Shown here: piece after piece, positions 1 through 7,655 of the stretch
Layout: the number at the start of each line of letters is the position of its first letter
Numbering within the stretch: the stretch's first letter is position 1
Assembly (NCBI GenBank): GCA_017508345.1
Contig: JAFVZD010000101.1
Location: 1 to 7,655 of the forward strand
Reading direction: 5' to 3'
Length of the DNA: 7,655 nt
DNA from: Clostridia bacterium
Lineage (GTDB): Bacteria; Bacillota_A; Clostridia; Christensenellales; UBA1242
Program-made: the position numbers and the translations under genes
Notes under the pieces: model-generated
The model's input: only the letters and a program-made list of their open reading frames with translations
What the model was told of the DNA's origin: nothing
Database searches by the model: none

Positions 1-954
1 ATTCCGCATCTCCAAGAATACTTCACTCAAATTTTTTAATTTACTATACAATCCCGCCCGTTCTTTATTCAATAAATTGGTAATAGCATTACTTTCCCTC
101 TCGTTTATCACCATATTACTGATTACCTCTAATACCTGCTTTGGCAACAACCAAAACAACACACACCCCACCAACATTGCCAAATGCTCATACATACTAC
201 CTATTGGCAAAAAATAGAACCTGAGTAAAACATTTACCAAAAACACCGACAATACACTATATATCCTATAATTACTCCTCATAGCACCCGCCACCATTCC
301 CAGTATCCCATAGATAGCCACATATATTAGACTCCCCGTACTGAGTGCCACACCTAGCCCACCTATTATACCCAACATCACACTCGCCCCTGTACCAAAG
401 CACCACATCCCCACTAGTATTGCCACACTGCACAATACATCTACTAGATACACACCCAAGAATGGTACATTATATACACCATTCACTATTAGCATCCACA
501 TCACTCCACCACTGATAACCTCCGCCACCTGATACTTTCGCCTAACACCATACATCATAATATTTTGTAAAAAGTATATATAACACCACATAGCAATCAC
601 CCCTAGCACTCCGCCCAAAACACTATCTATTAGCACCCCACCAGCATACATGCTTAGATATGTGTTTGCCAACACACTGGCTAACGCATACAATGTTATC
701 AATATCAAATTCATAGGTTTTTTACATTTGTAATGCAATACATACATTATAGACATTATCACTACCGTAATCACACTACCTATTACACTAATATAATTAC
801 CAAAGCAAATTAGATTGGATAATATATACAATGGTGCTACTATTTGCAATTTCTGATTACACCACACCATAGCAAAAAACATCCCCATTCCAAAACATCG
901 CATTCCCCCAATCTCTGCATAACTTAGTGCACAAAATATCAAGAAAATTCCCAA
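1..954 (-). CDS. spoIIE: Stage II sporulation protein E (SpoIIE), N-terminal membrane part, cut by window edge
   Basis: SpoIIE is a polytopic membrane PP2C-type phosphatase that dephosphorylates SpoIIAA at the sporulation septum and so activates sigma-F in the forespore. I translated the minus strand by hand: the frame is open from 999 to the window edge (333 codons). It encodes a series of hydrophobic segments; a Gly-rich membrane stretch (about residues 187-224 from the TTG start, including GTGASVMLGIIGGLG and GILGMVAGAMRS), typical of the SpoIIE membrane domain; then FWLLPKQVLE (about 267-276) and a charged helical linker ending YSKLKNLSEVFLEM (303-316), which resembles the linker before the phosphatase domain. 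The phosphatase domain lies outside the window. The start is uncertain: in-frame options are TTG at 954 and ATG at 903, both without a good SD. TTG 954 is used here because it keeps most of the first membrane segment. A family match beginning upstream of 954 suggests a frameshift (see findings). Identification is by recognised pattern, not by a search. Confidence 0.82.
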   Translation of the reverse strand, partial: MGIFLIFCALSYAEIGGMRCFGMGMFFAMVWCNQKLQIVAPLYILSNLICFGNYISVIGSVITVVIMSIMYVLHYKCKKPMNLILITLYALASVLANTYLSMYAGGVLIDSVLGGVLGVIAMWCYIYFLQNIMMYGVRRKYQVAEVISGGVMWMLIVNGVYNVPFLGVYLVDVLCSVAILVGMWCFGTGASVMLGIIGGLGVALSTGSLIYVAIYGILGMVAGAMRSNYRIYSVLSVFLVNVLLRFYFLPIGSMYEHLAMLVGCVLFWLLPKQVLEVISNMVINERESNAITNLLNKERAGLYSKLKNLSEVFLEMRN

Positions 955-2825: not shown

Positions 2826-3482
2826 ATGTCTACTCAACCTACCAAAAAACCAACAAAAACCAAAACTACTGCAAAAACCACTCGCACCACGCGTTCTACT
2901 CGCTCCACACCAACCAAAGCCTCATCTACCACCACCGCAAAAGCCAAAACCGCTACAAAAGAACCTCTGATCAGCACAGGCAAAAAAATAGGTCTAACCA
3001 TCTATTTTACTTTCATATTCACCATTATGGCAGTAATGGGATTGATGATTTGGATAAATAGCGCAAACGACCAATCAGTCACCACCGACCCAAGTTTTAC
3101 CAATCAAACCACCAGTCCAAACACCTCCACTGAACACAATACAAACACCACAAATTACCAAAACTCTACGGATAATCTCAACCCAACCACTGACACAACA
3201 ATCCAAAACAACACACAAAACTCTCCAACAACCAAGTCAGACACAACATCCACAACTAATACTAACCAACAAAACTCTGCCAGCACCAATGACTACACTG
3301 CCAGCACAAATTCCACAACCAGCACCAGCCAAAGCACCTTCACTACCACCAATCCAAAGGATAAATCCAACAACACACAATTCAACAATTCTACTCAATC
3401 TCAAAATACCAGCACCCCAATTCCAGCCAAAAACTCTTCGCAAAACGACATAATGGACACCCTACTAACCCAAAACAACTAA
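2826..3482 (+). CDS. Single-pass membrane protein with Thr/Ser/Asn/Gln-rich low-complexity tail
   Basis: A 218-aa protein I do not recognise. Residues 1-54 are a basic, Thr/Lys/Arg/Ser-rich stretch (TTRTTRSTRSTPTK) with almost no acidic residue, resembling histone-H1-like tails. Residues 55-77 (IGLTIYFTFIFTIMAVMGLMIW) are one membrane helix. Residues 78-218 are almost entirely Thr, Ser, Asn and Gln with a few Pro, ending DIMDTLLTQNN. By the positive-inside rule the basic part would be cytoplasmic and the polar tail outside, as a stalk or a substrate for modification; this is inference. There is no LPxTG, lipobox or enzyme motif. Bases 3121-3180 contain 20 C and 3 G, which agrees with the window-wide strand skew plus AAC/ACC/CAA codons. 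The open frame, SD-like GGGG 8 nt upstream and terminator downstream support a real gene, but rapid divergence is likely and homologues may be hard to find. Confidence 0.7.
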   Translation: MSTQPTKKPTKTKTTAKTTRTTRSTRSTPTKASSTTTAKAKTATKEPLISTGKKIGLTIYFTFIFTIMAVMGLMIWINSANDQSVTTDPSFTNQTTSPNTSTEHNTNTTNYQNSTDNLNPTTDTTIQNNTQNSPTTKSDTTSTTNTNQQNSASTNDYTASTNSTTSTSQSTFTTTNPKDKSNNTQFNNSTQSQNTSTPIPAKNSSQNDIMDTLLTQNN

Positions 3483-3562: not shown

Positions 3563-6508
3563 TTAAGCATTTTGCATGTAAATGCCGTATGCATTAGTAT
3601 TCATACCAGGTGTGAGACCAAATGTCCATACATCAGTATCAAAACCTTTTGATATAAAGATTGCTGCATCAGCACATCCCTCAGTTGTTACACCTTCTGA
3701 TGTTGTTTTAATAGCAGGAGCCAATGGTGTGAATCCTTGCTCAGCTTGCAAGCTACCACCATTAGTTGTGTTGAATACACAATTAGTCATGATACCACCA
3801 CATCTCTGAGCCATAACCTCCGCCTGCATGCTATCCTTGAGTGCATCAAATGATAACTTACTCAACAGAGTACCAACTGCTCTACCAAACATTATCTCAC
3901 CACCAGCCTCTGTGTGCAAGTACTTGGTACATGTATCCAAGTGTTTGTGTCCATCACCCTCGAATTTTACATTTACAAAACTTGTCTCAATTGTAGCATT
4001 TTTCTCAAATGACTTAGCCAAACCAGCCATCTCACTACCCAACAATGTTACAGTTGTAGATACATTAGTAACCTTACCTTGCTTGAATTCCACAACGATA
4101 CCAGCCACATTTGTACCACTTACCTTGTTGCTAGAGAATGATGATGTCACAGCCAACTTAGCACTTTGTGCAGTGTTTATCTGACCAGCAATACCACCAG
4201 CATTGTAGGCGTTAATTACACTATTAGAACCACTTGCCTTTACTTGACCATCGTGATTAATCACTGCCACAATACCACCGGCCATTGTATCAGCATTAAC
4301 ATTGCCTAGGTCAATATTAGCCTCTGCATAAGCATCAGCAATCTGAGCATAGGTTGCACCAGCAATACCACCAGCATAGTGAATGCTGTTCTTGTACTCA
4401 TCTGCTACAATAATGCTACCATAGTATTCAGCACCATTGATTACTGCATAGTTTTGACCAACGATACCACCAGTGTATGCTGTTGTGCCAGTATTCAAGT
4501 TAACATTCACAGTAGACACTACATCTCTAATGTTACCGCGGTTGCTACCCACTATACCACCAATCATTGTTGCGTTTGCATTAGCATTAATTACACTTGT
4601 ACCTGTTACAGCACAATCTTGAAGTAGACCAAAGTTCTTACCAGCAATCACACCTGTAGCACCTGTAGCACCATTACCACCTTCAACCTCGGCATTCACA
4701 ATGTTTAGACCCACAATCTGTGCATCCTTACCAATCACACCAAAGAATCCAGCATCAGCATACTTGCTGTCAATTACCAAATTGCTAATTGTGTAGTAGT
4801 TCTCACCATTCTTAGCTACTGTAATCTTACCATTGAATGGGTTCTCCTCAGTACCTACTGGTGTCCATGGGCTAGTCAACACAATGTCAGCATTGATCAA
4901 GTAGTTACCCTCTAGGTTGTAGCCAATGTTGCGTAGTTGTGCCTCATTTGTTACCAAAATCTTTGAACCTGGATCTACATCATAGATCATATCCACTACT
5001 ACCTCAGCCTCTTGCTCTGCAGTTCTCAATGTTGGCAATCCACCATTAACATTACGATCAATCATCCATACATTGTCAAAGTTCCAACTAGTAGGCTCAC
5101 TATTACCATAATATGTAATGTAAGGTGCCTTAGTTACCTCATCTTGCTCTGTTGCAATAGCACCCTGAGAACGAATAGCCTCAGCTACATCAGCCTCAGT
5201 TGGCATATTACTCATCAAATCCATAACAGAACTCATCACAAAGTATCTCTGCATGTAATCATCAGTATTATAAATACCCTTGAAACCTTGCTCAGATACA
5301 TAGTAGTTACCATAAATTCTATTCTCACCCAATTGGTCAATCAAGAAACTTGTACCATTTGGATTATAGTTTGTATTCAGTATCATACCCATCTTGTCAG
5401 ACAAGAATGTACCATCCTCTTGTTGCGCCACTGTCATTACACTATATGTGTTAATTATATAGGACTTAGCCACTGTGTCTCCAGCTACGCGTGCTGCAAT
5501 ACCTGCCATCTCAGCAGTGTCCTTTGTAGGTATCATTACACCCTTTGTATAAGAGTTAATAATAGTACCTCTCTCATTTAGTGCTGCAATACCACCTAGA
5601 ACATAATCACCACTCAATGTACCTACAAAAGATACACGGTCAATTCTACCACTATTGCAACCTACTATACCACCAGCATACATCTGAACAAATTCATACT
5701 CTGACACTTGTGTCACCGTACTATCTGTTACACTAACCATCTTAATTGTACCTTGGTTTTCACCAGCTACTACACCAGCTAGCATACCATCGTAGATACC
5801 TGCATGGCTAAAGTTCAAGTTCTCAACCACACCGGTCTTGCCTATTCCACCGAACAAACCAGCAAAGGCAATGTCCAAGTCAGCCTCAGGGAATCCTTCA
5901 GCTGGTGTACCATCCTCGTTTGTCTGATATTGCATAATAGTCAAGTTGTAGATTGTATATCCAGCACCATCCATAGTACCATCAAATGCACCTACATTCC
6001 AGCCGATTGGAGTCCAACACTTGTACGCACCTAGGTCAATATCAGATACCAATTTATAATTAGCATCCAATGCATATCCCTCTACTGTACCAATCTTGGT
6101 CAAATCCTCTGCATTACGCACAAAATAAGGATTCTCCTGAGTACCATCACCTATGTAAACTGTACAATTTTGGTTGTTGTACTCCTCTTTAGAAGAATTC
6201 AATGTAAGTGAAGTACTACCTGCTGTCAAAGCATCAAAAGTAAATACTACACTACCATTCTCCATGTTTTCTGTATTAGCCAAAGCTACTACATTAGTAT
6301 CCCCAATTACCATCTCAATCTTGGTATCCTCTTGGGCATCCTTCCTCTCCACTGTCACAGTAAATTGCTCACCCTTGTTGGCATTCACTACACTCTCGTT
6401 CAAGGTAATTACCTCATTTACACGAGCCAAGTAATAAACAGTCATACCACAGGTTACGGCAACTACTGCGATAGCCAAGAAAATCATAAACTTACCAAAC
6501 CAATTCAT
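3563..6508 (-). CDS. GLUG-repeat surface protein with N-terminal membrane anchor and Ig-like domain
   Basis: A 981-aa protein taken from the ATG at 6508, which has AGGAGA about 10 nt upstream; an in-frame TTG at 6538 lies upstream of that SD and has none of its own. Order: short basic N-terminus and one hydrophobic helix (about residues 4-28) acting as an export signal or anchor; an Ig-like (BIG2-type) stretch of about 31-118; then two beta-helix cassettes. Each opens with a TxENPF/TQENPY-type or 'LxxIG...NY.L..DI.L...WTP.G' segment (about 121-190 and 515-580), runs through GLUG-like turns (AGGIVGCNSG 278-287, GGIVGSNRGNI 650-660, GGIVGQN 680-686, AGGIAGATYAQI 712-723, AGGIAGQ 770-776), and ends with a Trp-containing strand (WNFDNVWMI 475-483; VWTFG 960-964). 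GLUG proteins are extracellular right-handed beta-helices, often adhesins or exopolysaccharide-interacting proteins. There is no LPxTG, SLH or choline-binding anchor. Ligand unknown. Confidence 0.88.
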   Translation of the reverse strand: MNWFGKFMIFLAIAVVAVTCGMTVYYLARVNEVITLNESVVNANKGEQFTVTVERKDAQEDTKIEMVIGDTNVVALANTENMENGSVVFTFDALTAGSTSLTLNSSKEEYNNQNCTVYIGDGTQENPYFVRNAEDLTKIGTVEGYALDANYKLVSDIDLGAYKCWTPIGWNVGAFDGTMDGAGYTIYNLTIMQYQTNEDGTPAEGFPEADLDIAFAGLFGGIGKTGVVENLNFSHAGIYDGMLAGVVAGENQGTIKMVSVTDSTVTQVSEYEFVQMYAGGIVGCNSGRIDRVSFVGTLSGDYVLGGIAALNERGTIINSYTKGVMIPTKDTAEMAGIAARVAGDTVAKSYIINTYSVMTVAQQEDGTFLSDKMGMILNTNYNPNGTSFLIDQLGENRIYGNYYVSEQGFKGIYNTDDYMQRYFVMSSVMDLMSNMPTEADVAEAIRSQGAIATEQDEVTKAPYITYYGNSEPTSWNFDNVWMIDRNVNGGLPTLRTAEQEAEVVVDMIYDVDPGSKILVTNEAQLRNIGYNLEGNYLINADIVLTSPWTPVGTEENPFNGKITVAKNGENYYTISNLVIDSKYADAGFFGVIGKDAQIVGLNIVNAEVEGGNGATGATGVIAGKNFGLLQDCAVTGTSVINANANATMIGGIVGSNRGNIRDVVSTVNVNLNTGTTAYTGGIVGQNYAVINGAEYYGSIIVADEYKNSIHYAGGIAGATYAQIADAYAEANIDLGNVNADTMAGGIVAVINHDGQVKASGSNSVINAYNAGGIAGQINTAQSAKLAVTSSFSSNKVSGTNVAGIVVEFKQGKVTNVSTTVTLLGSEMAGLAKSFEKNATIETSFVNVKFEGDGHKHLDTCTKYLHTEAGGEIMFGRAVGTLLSKLSFDALKDSMQAEVMAQRCGGIMTNCVFNTTNGGSLQAEQGFTPLAPAIKTTSEGVTTEGCADAAIFISKGFDTDVWTFGLTPGMNTNAYGIYMQNA

Positions 6509-6518
6509 ATTCCTATTA

Positions 6519-6524
6519 TCTCCT
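6519..6524 (-). promoter_or_regulatory. Ribosome binding site deciding the GLUG-protein start
   Basis: AGGAGA on the minus strand lies about 10 nt before ATG 6508. It lies downstream of the alternative TTG at 6538 and inside that longer reading frame, so the ten-residue extension is unlikely. Confidence 0.7.
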
Positions 6525-6559
6525 AATGTTTTTGTCAAAGAATCTTACTTCTTTTTACA

Positions 6560-6738: not shown

Positions 6739-6770
6739 AAAAAAAATAGCCCCAATTACTTGTAGGCTAT
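6739..6770 (-). terminator. Intrinsic terminator of the mazF unit, overlapping the stop codon
   Basis: On the minus strand ATAGCC (6770-6765) pairs with GGCTAT (6751-6746) around a 13-nt loop, followed by a run of eight T's (6746-6739). The 5' arm begins with the last base of the mazF TGA stop (6772-6770). The stem is short, but the T-run and position support it. Confidence 0.7.
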
Positions 6771-7114
6771 CACCAAAATCCCAGACTAATCATTATCGCT
6801 TTGTTGACTTCACTCAACCTTACACTATCCAAGGCACCTATTTTATTCAATAACCTAGCCTTGTCAATAGTCCTAATCTGCTCCAATAATACTACCGAAT
6901 CCTTATCCAAACCATATGTATCCGCACTCAACTCTATGTGCGTAGGCAATTTTGCTTTTGTCAACCTACTAGTCACTGCCGCCACTATCACTGTAGGACT
7001 ATACCTATTACCTATGTCATTCTGTACCACCAATACCGGCCTCACACCACCCTGCTCACTACCCACTACGGGTGAGAGATTGGCATAATACAGCTCTCCG
7101 CGTTTGATATCCAA
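6770..7114 (-). CDS. mazF: MazF/EndoA-family endoribonuclease toxin
   Basis: A 114-aa PemK/MazF-fold mRNA interferase. The N-terminal [20 protein letters not shown] and the following [20 protein letters not shown] are nearly the Bacillus EndoA (NdoA) sequence, as is [17 protein letters not shown]. Arg25 and Thr48, the catalytic residues of the Bacillus enzyme, are both present, so activity is expected; Bacillus EndoA cuts single-stranded RNA at UACAU, and similar specificity is a guess here. The start is TTG at 7114, directly after the upstream gene's TAG (TAGTTG). The start is fixed by GGAGGAG 9 nt upstream and by family length. The close junction implies translational coupling with the 67-aa protein, as in toxin-antitoxin pairs. 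A terminator follows at once. acpS lies upstream, as in Bacillus. Confidence 0.95.
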
Positions 7115-7318
7115 CTAATTTCTCTCCTCCAACCATTCCTCATATTTTATTAATTCTACTAAATCGCAGTCATCCACCACAATTTGTTCCTCAGCACATT
7201 CTTGTAGACATATGCCGTATTCACTCACATCCAGTGTATGCATCTTTGTACTGCTTTTGTGCCTACTGTACTTTATTAATTGACTTTTGTACTCTATCCA
7301 TTCATCTTTATTATCCAA
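7115..7318 (-). CDS. 67-aa acidic protein in the antitoxin position before mazF
   Basis: An unrecognised small protein that is probably the MazF partner. It begins at TTG 7318, 6 nt after AGAGGG (7330-7325); the next in-frame ATG is residue 26. It is acidic: 17 Asp/Glu against 8 Lys/Arg. Acidic residues concentrate in the second half (EEQIVVDDCDLVELIKYEEW), and residues 53-66 can form an amphipathic helix, as in the toxin-binding tails of MazE-type antitoxins. The N-terminal half is more basic (KYSRHKSSTK, 16-25). EndoAI, the usual Bacillus antitoxin, is about 93 aa with a ribbon-helix-helix domain; I see no such domain here. There are three Cys (37, 41, 51), two of them in a CLQEC pair. It ends in TAG touching the mazF TTG. 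Real coding is supported by the SD, the tight junction and position between acpS and mazF; the antitoxin role is inference. Confidence 0.75.
   Translation of the reverse strand: MDNKDEWIEYKSQLIKYSRHKSSTKMHTLDVSEYGICLQECAEEQIVVDDCDLVELIKYEEWLEERN
7124..7130 (-). promoter_or_regulatory. Strong Shine-Dalgarno inside the upstream gene, deciding the mazF TTG start
   Basis: GGAGGAG on the minus strand lies 9 nt before TTG 7114 and encodes part of Leu-Glu-Glu near the end of the 67-aa protein. It is the best SD in the window and compensates for the non-ATG start. Confidence 0.8.
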
Positions 7319-7385
7319 TTTATTCCCTCTCTTTTATTTTTAATACCTGTCTATATCCATATTTTTTGTACAAACACTACTTTTA

Positions 7386-7414
7386 TTTATAATATTACTT
7401 TCTATTATTGTCGT
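7386..7414 (-). promoter_or_regulatory. Possible promoter of the 67-aa protein-mazF unit
   Basis: ACGACA (7414-7409) and TATAAA (7391-7386) on the minus strand are 17 nt apart, matching consensus at 4 of 6 and 5 of 6 positions. It lies between the acpS terminator and TTG 7318 with a leader of about 60 nt. Moderate support only. Confidence 0.35.
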
Positions 7415-7425
7415 TTTTTGCCAAT

Positions 7426-7457
7426 AAAAAAAAAGAAGTATACTATCTACTCCTCTT
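7426..7457 (-). terminator. Probable intrinsic terminator after acpS
   Basis: On the minus strand AAGAGGAGTA (7457-7448) pairs with TACTTCTTTT (7440-7431) through 10 pairs, two of them G-U, around a 7-nt loop, followed by more T's to 7426. It starts seven bases past the acpS stop and would separate acpS from the mazF unit. Confidence 0.55.
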
Positions 7458-7463
7458 TTCCCT

Positions 7464-7655
7464 CTAATTCATTACACATACAGCATATGCATACTCTCCA
7501 TCATGTGCTATGCTAATATCAATCTCACTATACTTGCTATCAAAAATTTCTTTTGCCTTGTTATACAATCTTACTACCGGCTTGCCACCCCTCTCTGCCA
7601 GCACCTCAATATCATTTAAGGCTATTTCGCCTATTCCCGTCCCCATAGCCTTGAC
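7464..7655 (-). CDS. acpS: Holo-[acyl-carrier-protein] synthase, C-terminal part, cut by window edge
   Basis: AcpS transfers 4'-phosphopantetheine from CoA to a serine of acyl carrier protein, activating it for fatty acid synthesis. Only the last 63 residues are in the window; the frame is open to the right edge, so the ATG at 7646 is an internal Met. Visible family features: VKAMGTGIGEI matching the conserved KA-GTGI segment after the catalytic KEAF, LNDIEVLAERGGKPVVRL matching the DIEV...GKP strand pair, and SIAHDGEYAYAVCV, the final SxSH-type segment (Ser replaced by Ala: SIAH). The N-terminal metal-binding GxD and KEAF motifs lie outside. In Bacillus acpS lies upstream of alr, ndoAI and ndoA; here only a small gene separates it from mazF. 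Confidence 0.88.
   Translation of the reverse strand, partial: VKAMGTGIGEIALNDIEVLAERGGKPVVRLYNKAKEIFDSKYSEIDISIAHDGEYAYAVCVMN

Follow-up and report, generated by a model that had tools for sequence, protein, structure and literature searches.

The mazF gene of the window (the whole stretch of 7,655 nucleotides of Clostridia bacterium DNA analysed here) is directly preceded by a gene for a 67-aa acidic protein. The two genes probably form a toxin-antitoxin operon of the MazEF type, in which a short acidic protein that lacks a DNA-binding domain would serve as antitoxin by binding the toxin. In our best reading, only the toxin-binding part of a MazF antitoxin is left in the 67-aa protein, which probably derives from EndoAI by erosion.

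On the minus strand the gene order is acpS (cut by the end of the window), the 67-aa frame and mazF (Table 1). acpS is located 350 bp upstream, and alr is not seen in the window. The 67-aa frame opens with a TTG at 7318 and ends with a TAG at 7117-7115; the codon directly after it is the mazF start, TTG (7114-7112), and mazF ends at 6770. The encoded protein has 17 D+E versus 8 K+R residues, a net charge of about -9 by hand count. Neither a consensus promoter nor a terminator was found on the minus strand in the 145-bp gap before the 67-aa gene. The layout is that of a type II toxin-antitoxin module: a two-gene operon with a small acidic protein gene before the toxin gene and coupled translation. 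The TTG-started acidic 67-aa frame that abuts MazF and contains the Shine-Dalgarno sequence (SD) of mazF, as noted in the preliminary description, was confirmed from the sequence; an SD-like stretch also precedes the frame itself.

Table 1. Features of the mazF locus (coordinates in the window)
Feature	Coordinates	Strand	Basis
acpS, 3' part (holo-ACP synthase)	7464-7655	minus	acpS models, E down to 8.7e-11; truncated by window end
Gap between acpS and 67-aa gene, 145 bp	7319-7463	minus	
Purine-rich SD-like stretch preceding the 67-aa TTG	about 7324-7332	minus	read from sequence
67-aa acidic ORF, probable MazF antitoxin without RHH domain	7115-7318	minus	TTG start, TAG stop
SD-like ggaggagaga for mazF, within the 67-aa gene (codons of tail WLEER)	7121-7130	minus	SD match scored
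mazF, EndoA-type mRNA interferase, 114 aa	6770-7114	minus	TTG start; Pfam PemK_toxin, PDB relatives, fold

The MazF of the window contains a full Pfam PemK_toxin domain (E 9.3e-37). In a PDB sequence search it aligns almost end to end with EndoA chains of B. subtilis, and its closest relatives there are the Bacillus and S. aureus MazF proteins. The fold of the MazF part of the second fused model (see below) matches EndoA and S. aureus MazF. R25 and T48, which we take to be active-site residues, are invariant across 108 aligned rows (R93 and T116 in the fused numbering).

Used alone as a query, the 67-aa protein gave one near-identical sequence among about 5.8 billion proteins; its family was then built from mazF neighbourhoods. 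The sample consisted of 147 genomes, mostly 0.8-1.4 Mb in size, from the family of genome G001; 111 of them have a mazF match and 36 do not. It is very probable that the window comes from this family of ~1-Mb Clostridia. Its closest match there, G060, shows 80% identity over MazF and carries a metallo-beta-lactamase gene whose product is 70% identical to that of positions 1979-2770 of the window, located about 4 kb from mazF and convergent with it as in the window. A window-like convergent arrangement of metallo-beta-lactamase and mazF is also present in G051, G049 and G080, at 3.5-3.8 kb.

Ninety-four of the 113 mazF places in these genomes were examined (L081-L170, n=90, with L013, L017, L020 and L064), the 19 weakest being left out. 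An ORF of 57-105 aa abuts mazF in 93 of them, L169 being the exception, and all these ORFs are short, unannotated and devoid of a ribbon-helix-helix (RHH). The pair is conserved in relatives, and the short partner is the rule across a family, not a peculiarity of one locus. Outside the family, an abutting ORF (50-120 aa, with slightly different distance limits) was found in two of 31 antitoxin-less mazF loci.

As a single query (E-values computed for a nominal 10,000 sequences), the window protein recovers L081 (E 1.7e-6) and L101 (E 3.9e-6). Iterating the search within the set brings together 73 of the 90 short proteins, inclusion inflating their E-values, and leaves out 17. All members of a 22-row alignment have Y59 and E60, and 90% have H27 and W62. 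The profile A1, built of 22 aligned short-ORF rows, gave 48 matches in 46 of the 147 family genomes, which is a lower bound, as A1 misses most of the more distant partners. Forty-four of these matches lie directly before mazF (23 of them being sequences outside the profile); the remaining four, located in long frames, have weak E-values of 0.001-0.008. There were no A1 matches in the 36 family genomes without a mazF match. Selection acts at the protein level in the relatives: median pN/pS is 0.36, with values below 0.5 in 34 of 41 pairs (members 55-97% identical, the window not among the pairs). The mazF SD begins inside the antitoxin ORF in 66 of the 90 family loci according to a simple scan. 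A mazF start was found in 88 loci, and in 64 of these it overlaps or touches the antitoxin stop; the short-family sequences are interrelated and such counts are not independent. From the adjacency to mazF, the absence from mazF-less genomes and the protein-level selection we conclude that the short ORFs constitute a genuine family of proteins devoted to MazF.

Of 19 relatives collected, four carry a name in annotations, in each case "hypothetical protein". For the 67-aa protein itself, searches of Pfam, NCBIfam and PADLOC gave no match, and PHROGs gave two that are insignificant. Three stray Pfam matches of single family members (best E 0.00029) were dropped as chance.

Among the closest known systems is EndoAI-EndoA of B. 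subtilis (YdcD-YdcE, MazE-MazF; PDB 4me7), whose toxin is of the same type and where the antitoxin gene also stands directly before the toxin gene. EndoAI is about 93 aa long and includes an N-terminal RHH and a MazF-binding helix M..GY.EM, whereas the window protein has neither. Profile A6, made of 18 RHH EndoAI sequences, detected EndoAI in all eight control genomes at E 5.8e-28 or better (their EndoAIs are not in the profile). In the 147 family genomes A6 found nothing at mazF and produced two weak matches alone, on another contig of G080. The partner had been described as unlike the usual EndoAI, and this stands: it has no domain match, and in the 147 family genomes neither an EndoAI-like antitoxin at mazF nor a separate EndoAI was found. 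The reverse search with A1 gave nothing in 20 genomes (eight EndoAI controls, seven with short GYxEM-type ORFs and five with antitoxin-less mazF).

The sequence likeness of the short family to EndoAI is weak. Scores of the EndoAI HMM against the short family (HMMER) are at noise level, the best being 8.8 bits with shuffles reaching 10.3. The hhalign probability is 3.7% with all 90 sequences and 2.9% with 62 sequences preselected for the tail motif, where two of 199 column shuffles were as good. What hhalign aligns is precisely the YE..[LMIFV] tails of both families. This tail occurs within the last 18 residues of 58 of the 90 short proteins (3.1 in shuffles), part of it overlapping the mazF SD and possibly being kept at the RNA level, and in 17 of 36 EndoAI proteins (1.1 in shuffles). 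The window protein carries it as YEEWL, residues 59-63 of 67. A degenerate EndoAI helix was found in six of the 90 short proteins (0.47 expected), at about EndoAI's distance from the C-terminus. C-anchored likeness to EndoAI exceeds that of a protein's own shuffles at the 5% level in 27 of 90 short proteins (4.5 expected); for the window protein alone it is not significant, as 263 of 1000 shuffles were as good. As for the neighbourhood, acpS is located within 1.5 kb upstream in 45 of the 90 family loci, while the 36 EndoAI loci have alr within 1.5 kb in 28 cases and acpS within 4 kb in 16.

An eroded EndoAI seems a somewhat more probable origin than an unrelated newcomer. In the latter case EndoAI would have been lost and a non-homologous small protein would have taken over MazF binding, the YE..L tail being convergent because the same MazF groove is bound. 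Such a replacement is less probable. It agrees with the profile searches, which link neither family significantly to the other, and with the absence of the binding helix from most members, but both families occupy the same place in the acpS neighbourhood and share the YE..L tail, the degenerate helix of a few members is about as far from the C-terminus as in EndoAI, and the C-anchored likeness extends to 27 of 90 members. A wider scenario strikes us as unlikely: the whole family of small-genome Clostridia would have swapped EndoAI for an unrelated, fast-evolving minimal antitoxin unable to repress transcription, leaving the MazEF loop on coupled translation and protein binding alone, as a step toward the antitoxin-free mazF of neighbouring groups.

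Whatever its origin, a short antitoxin before an EndoA-type MazF has a counterpart in the short MazE of S. aureus (NF041459). This MazE is described as possibly unrelated to classic MazE and as not autoregulating its operon (PMC4041440, PMC4885055), and its toxin-binding segment as 42% identical to that of YdcD (PMC4041440). The NF041459 model matched none of 22 family members at E 0.01 and did not match the window protein at E 1. Another inhibitor without a DNA-binding domain is AimX of Bacillus phage phi3T (51 aa, PDB 8anv), which binds and inactivates MazF. EndoAI, AimX and, by proposal, YosL inhibit MazF via a helix placed in the MazF dimer groove, and AimX residues M14, Y18, E20 and M21 match the EndoAI binding helix (PMC10769878). 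In our search the AimX chain aligned to positions 53-83 of the EndoAI profile. AimX and YosL are phage-borne and not located beside mazF, and AimX keeps the M...Y.EM helix, which is absent from the window protein. The window gene, unlike theirs, lies beside acpS and mazF and is conserved in a bacterial family.

The RHH is missing outside the family too. Seven mazE-like ORFs from other Bacillota (L025, L026, L029, L036, L041, L066 and L069) lack it and resemble the window gene in standing directly before mazF. Unlike the window protein, they keep a GYxEM-type helix, and the EndoAI profile matches all seven only from position 31-51 on. alr is located just upstream in five of these seven loci, and five of the seven short forms match NF041459, below its curated cut-off. 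The interpretation in the preliminary description is partly supported, but not where it sees a candidate for an undescribed system: RHH-less MazF inhibitors such as S. aureus MazE and phage AimX are known (PMC4041440, PMC4885055, PMC10769878), so the kind is not new. The short family differs from them in that it lacks the known binding helix, is the rule across a bacterial family and is unannotated. No description of the short family was found in the literature searched, whose coverage excludes most subscription papers and preprints, and supplements.

If the 67-aa protein is indeed a reduced antitoxin, a whole bacterial family does without the DNA-binding half of the MazEF antitoxin, and a small protein annotated as hypothetical acquires a function. 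The debated role of autoregulation in toxin-antitoxin modules could then be tested by comparing related genomes with a full antitoxin, a short one and none beside the same toxin.

Under our preferred reading, that of a reduced antitoxin, the 67-aa protein would be translated first and the toxin would be made only where antitoxin has just been made, since the mazF SD lies inside the antitoxin ORF, whose stop adjoins the mazF start. Of the layers of control, coupled translation has the best support. By analogy with EndoAI, the 67-aa protein would bind and neutralise MazF through its C-terminal half, the helix and the YEEWLEE tail being placed in the MazF dimer groove and keeping RNA out. Without an RHH, it would be unable to repress its own promoter in the EndoAI manner; autoregulation would be lost and control would rest on coupled translation, antitoxin turnover and whatever drives the promoter. 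This suggests that binding and coupled translation, rather than gene repression, keep MazF under control.

Structure was predicted with AlphaFold on read-through fusions, in which the TAG between the genes was read as Q and the two chains were joined in frame. The first fused model (19 antitoxin rows, three MazF rows) had a mean pLDDT of 44 and an unfolded MazF. In the second (107 MazF rows) MazF was folded, with block pLDDT of 68-92, and the antitoxin blocks reached 31-56. Neither model contains a confident antitoxin-MazF contact. MAFFT aligned antitoxin-only rows to MazF once several MazF rows were present, so deep alignments of both chains could not be combined. The second model places an amphipathic C-terminal helix at residues 50-67 (pLDDT 47-56 there). 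Of the features listed for the 67-aa protein in the preliminary description, an SD-like stretch, the acidic charge and the stop-to-start abutment are seen in the sequence, and this helix only in the model.

No antitoxin ORF was found at 31 of 80 related mazF loci (L001-L080, related Clostridia); examples are L006, L008, L011, L012, L014, L016, L018, L019, L022, L024, L043, L046, L048, L049 and L075. The EndoAI profile A6 gave nothing in five of five tested genomes with antitoxin-less mazF, so those MazF proteins may not need an antitoxin. If an antitoxin-less MazF is tolerated, an antitoxin is perhaps unnecessary for the window MazF too. The antitoxin-less mazF rows in alignment A5 keep R25 and T48, and such catalytically conserved genes would fit a 67-aa protein that acts elsewhere in the cell, and a MazF that does no harm at native levels or is counteracted by some unlinked gene. 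The only PDB profile match worth naming, of the family profile to the N-terminal part of WhiA (E 0.0044), points the same way; it was dropped, having no other support, and apart from it the supposed MazF partner matched no housekeeping family. A role elsewhere is improbable, as the family is present beside mazF and absent without it.

The antitoxin-less genes could also speak for an ORF that merely brings ribosomes to mazF, its product having no effect on MazF. The frequent position of the mazF SD inside the ORF and the overlap of the tail codons with this SD would be explained as well, but the pN/pS values indicate selection on the protein, and the conserved residues include, besides Y59, E60 and W62, H27, which lies far from the SD. 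This makes the explanation very improbable. That the frame is a chance ORF and no gene has a negligible probability: the single near-identical hit of the window protein would suit it, but relatives with common motifs occur at the same place and their pN/pS is well below 1.

UACAU is the expected cleavage site of this MazF. TACAT counts across the operon are equivocal regarding such cleavage: mazF genes contain 19 TACAT against 17.4 expected. In the antitoxin ORFs (L081-L170 and the window) TACAT is approximately fourfold depleted, with six seen versus 23.5-24.5 expected in synonymous shuffles, and other ORFs are mildly depleted (60 versus 83.2 expected). Avoidance of TACAT in the short ORFs is suggestive at most, the sequences not being independent. 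The H-x-M motif of the short proteins was considered as a MazF self-cleavage site (UACAU) in the mRNA and rejected on codon usage, the codon preceding the His codon being TTG in 21 of 81 cases and TTA and CTA once each.

A block around TACATA..ATGATAGCGGAGG recurs in antitoxin-less leaders, some 34-49 nt upstream of mazF, at L006, L011, L012, L014, L016, L018, L022 and L043 (and L048). TACAT is present within 90 nt in nine of the 31 antitoxin-less leaders, with 2.8 expected and at most seven in 60 shuffles. The block may represent a target of MazF or a promoter of the extended -10 type, and the loci may be close kin.

Elsewhere in the window, positions 2826-3482 of the plus strand encode a protein of 218 aa that is rich in Thr, Asn and Ser, shows one apparent membrane span and matches nothing in Pfam. 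For a frame leaving the window at 1-954 (minus strand), Pfam gives a match to stage II sporulation protein E, N-terminal part (E 3.4e-7), which is unexpected for a lineage of ~1-Mb genomes. Positions 3563-6538 of the minus strand encode a protein of 991 aa in which Pfam recognises a GLUG motif (E 6.5e-7). Ahead of its gene, at 6592-6564 on the same strand, stands a sigma-70 promoter of perfect consensus, TTGACA-17-TATAAT, whose second hexamer is preceded by TG.
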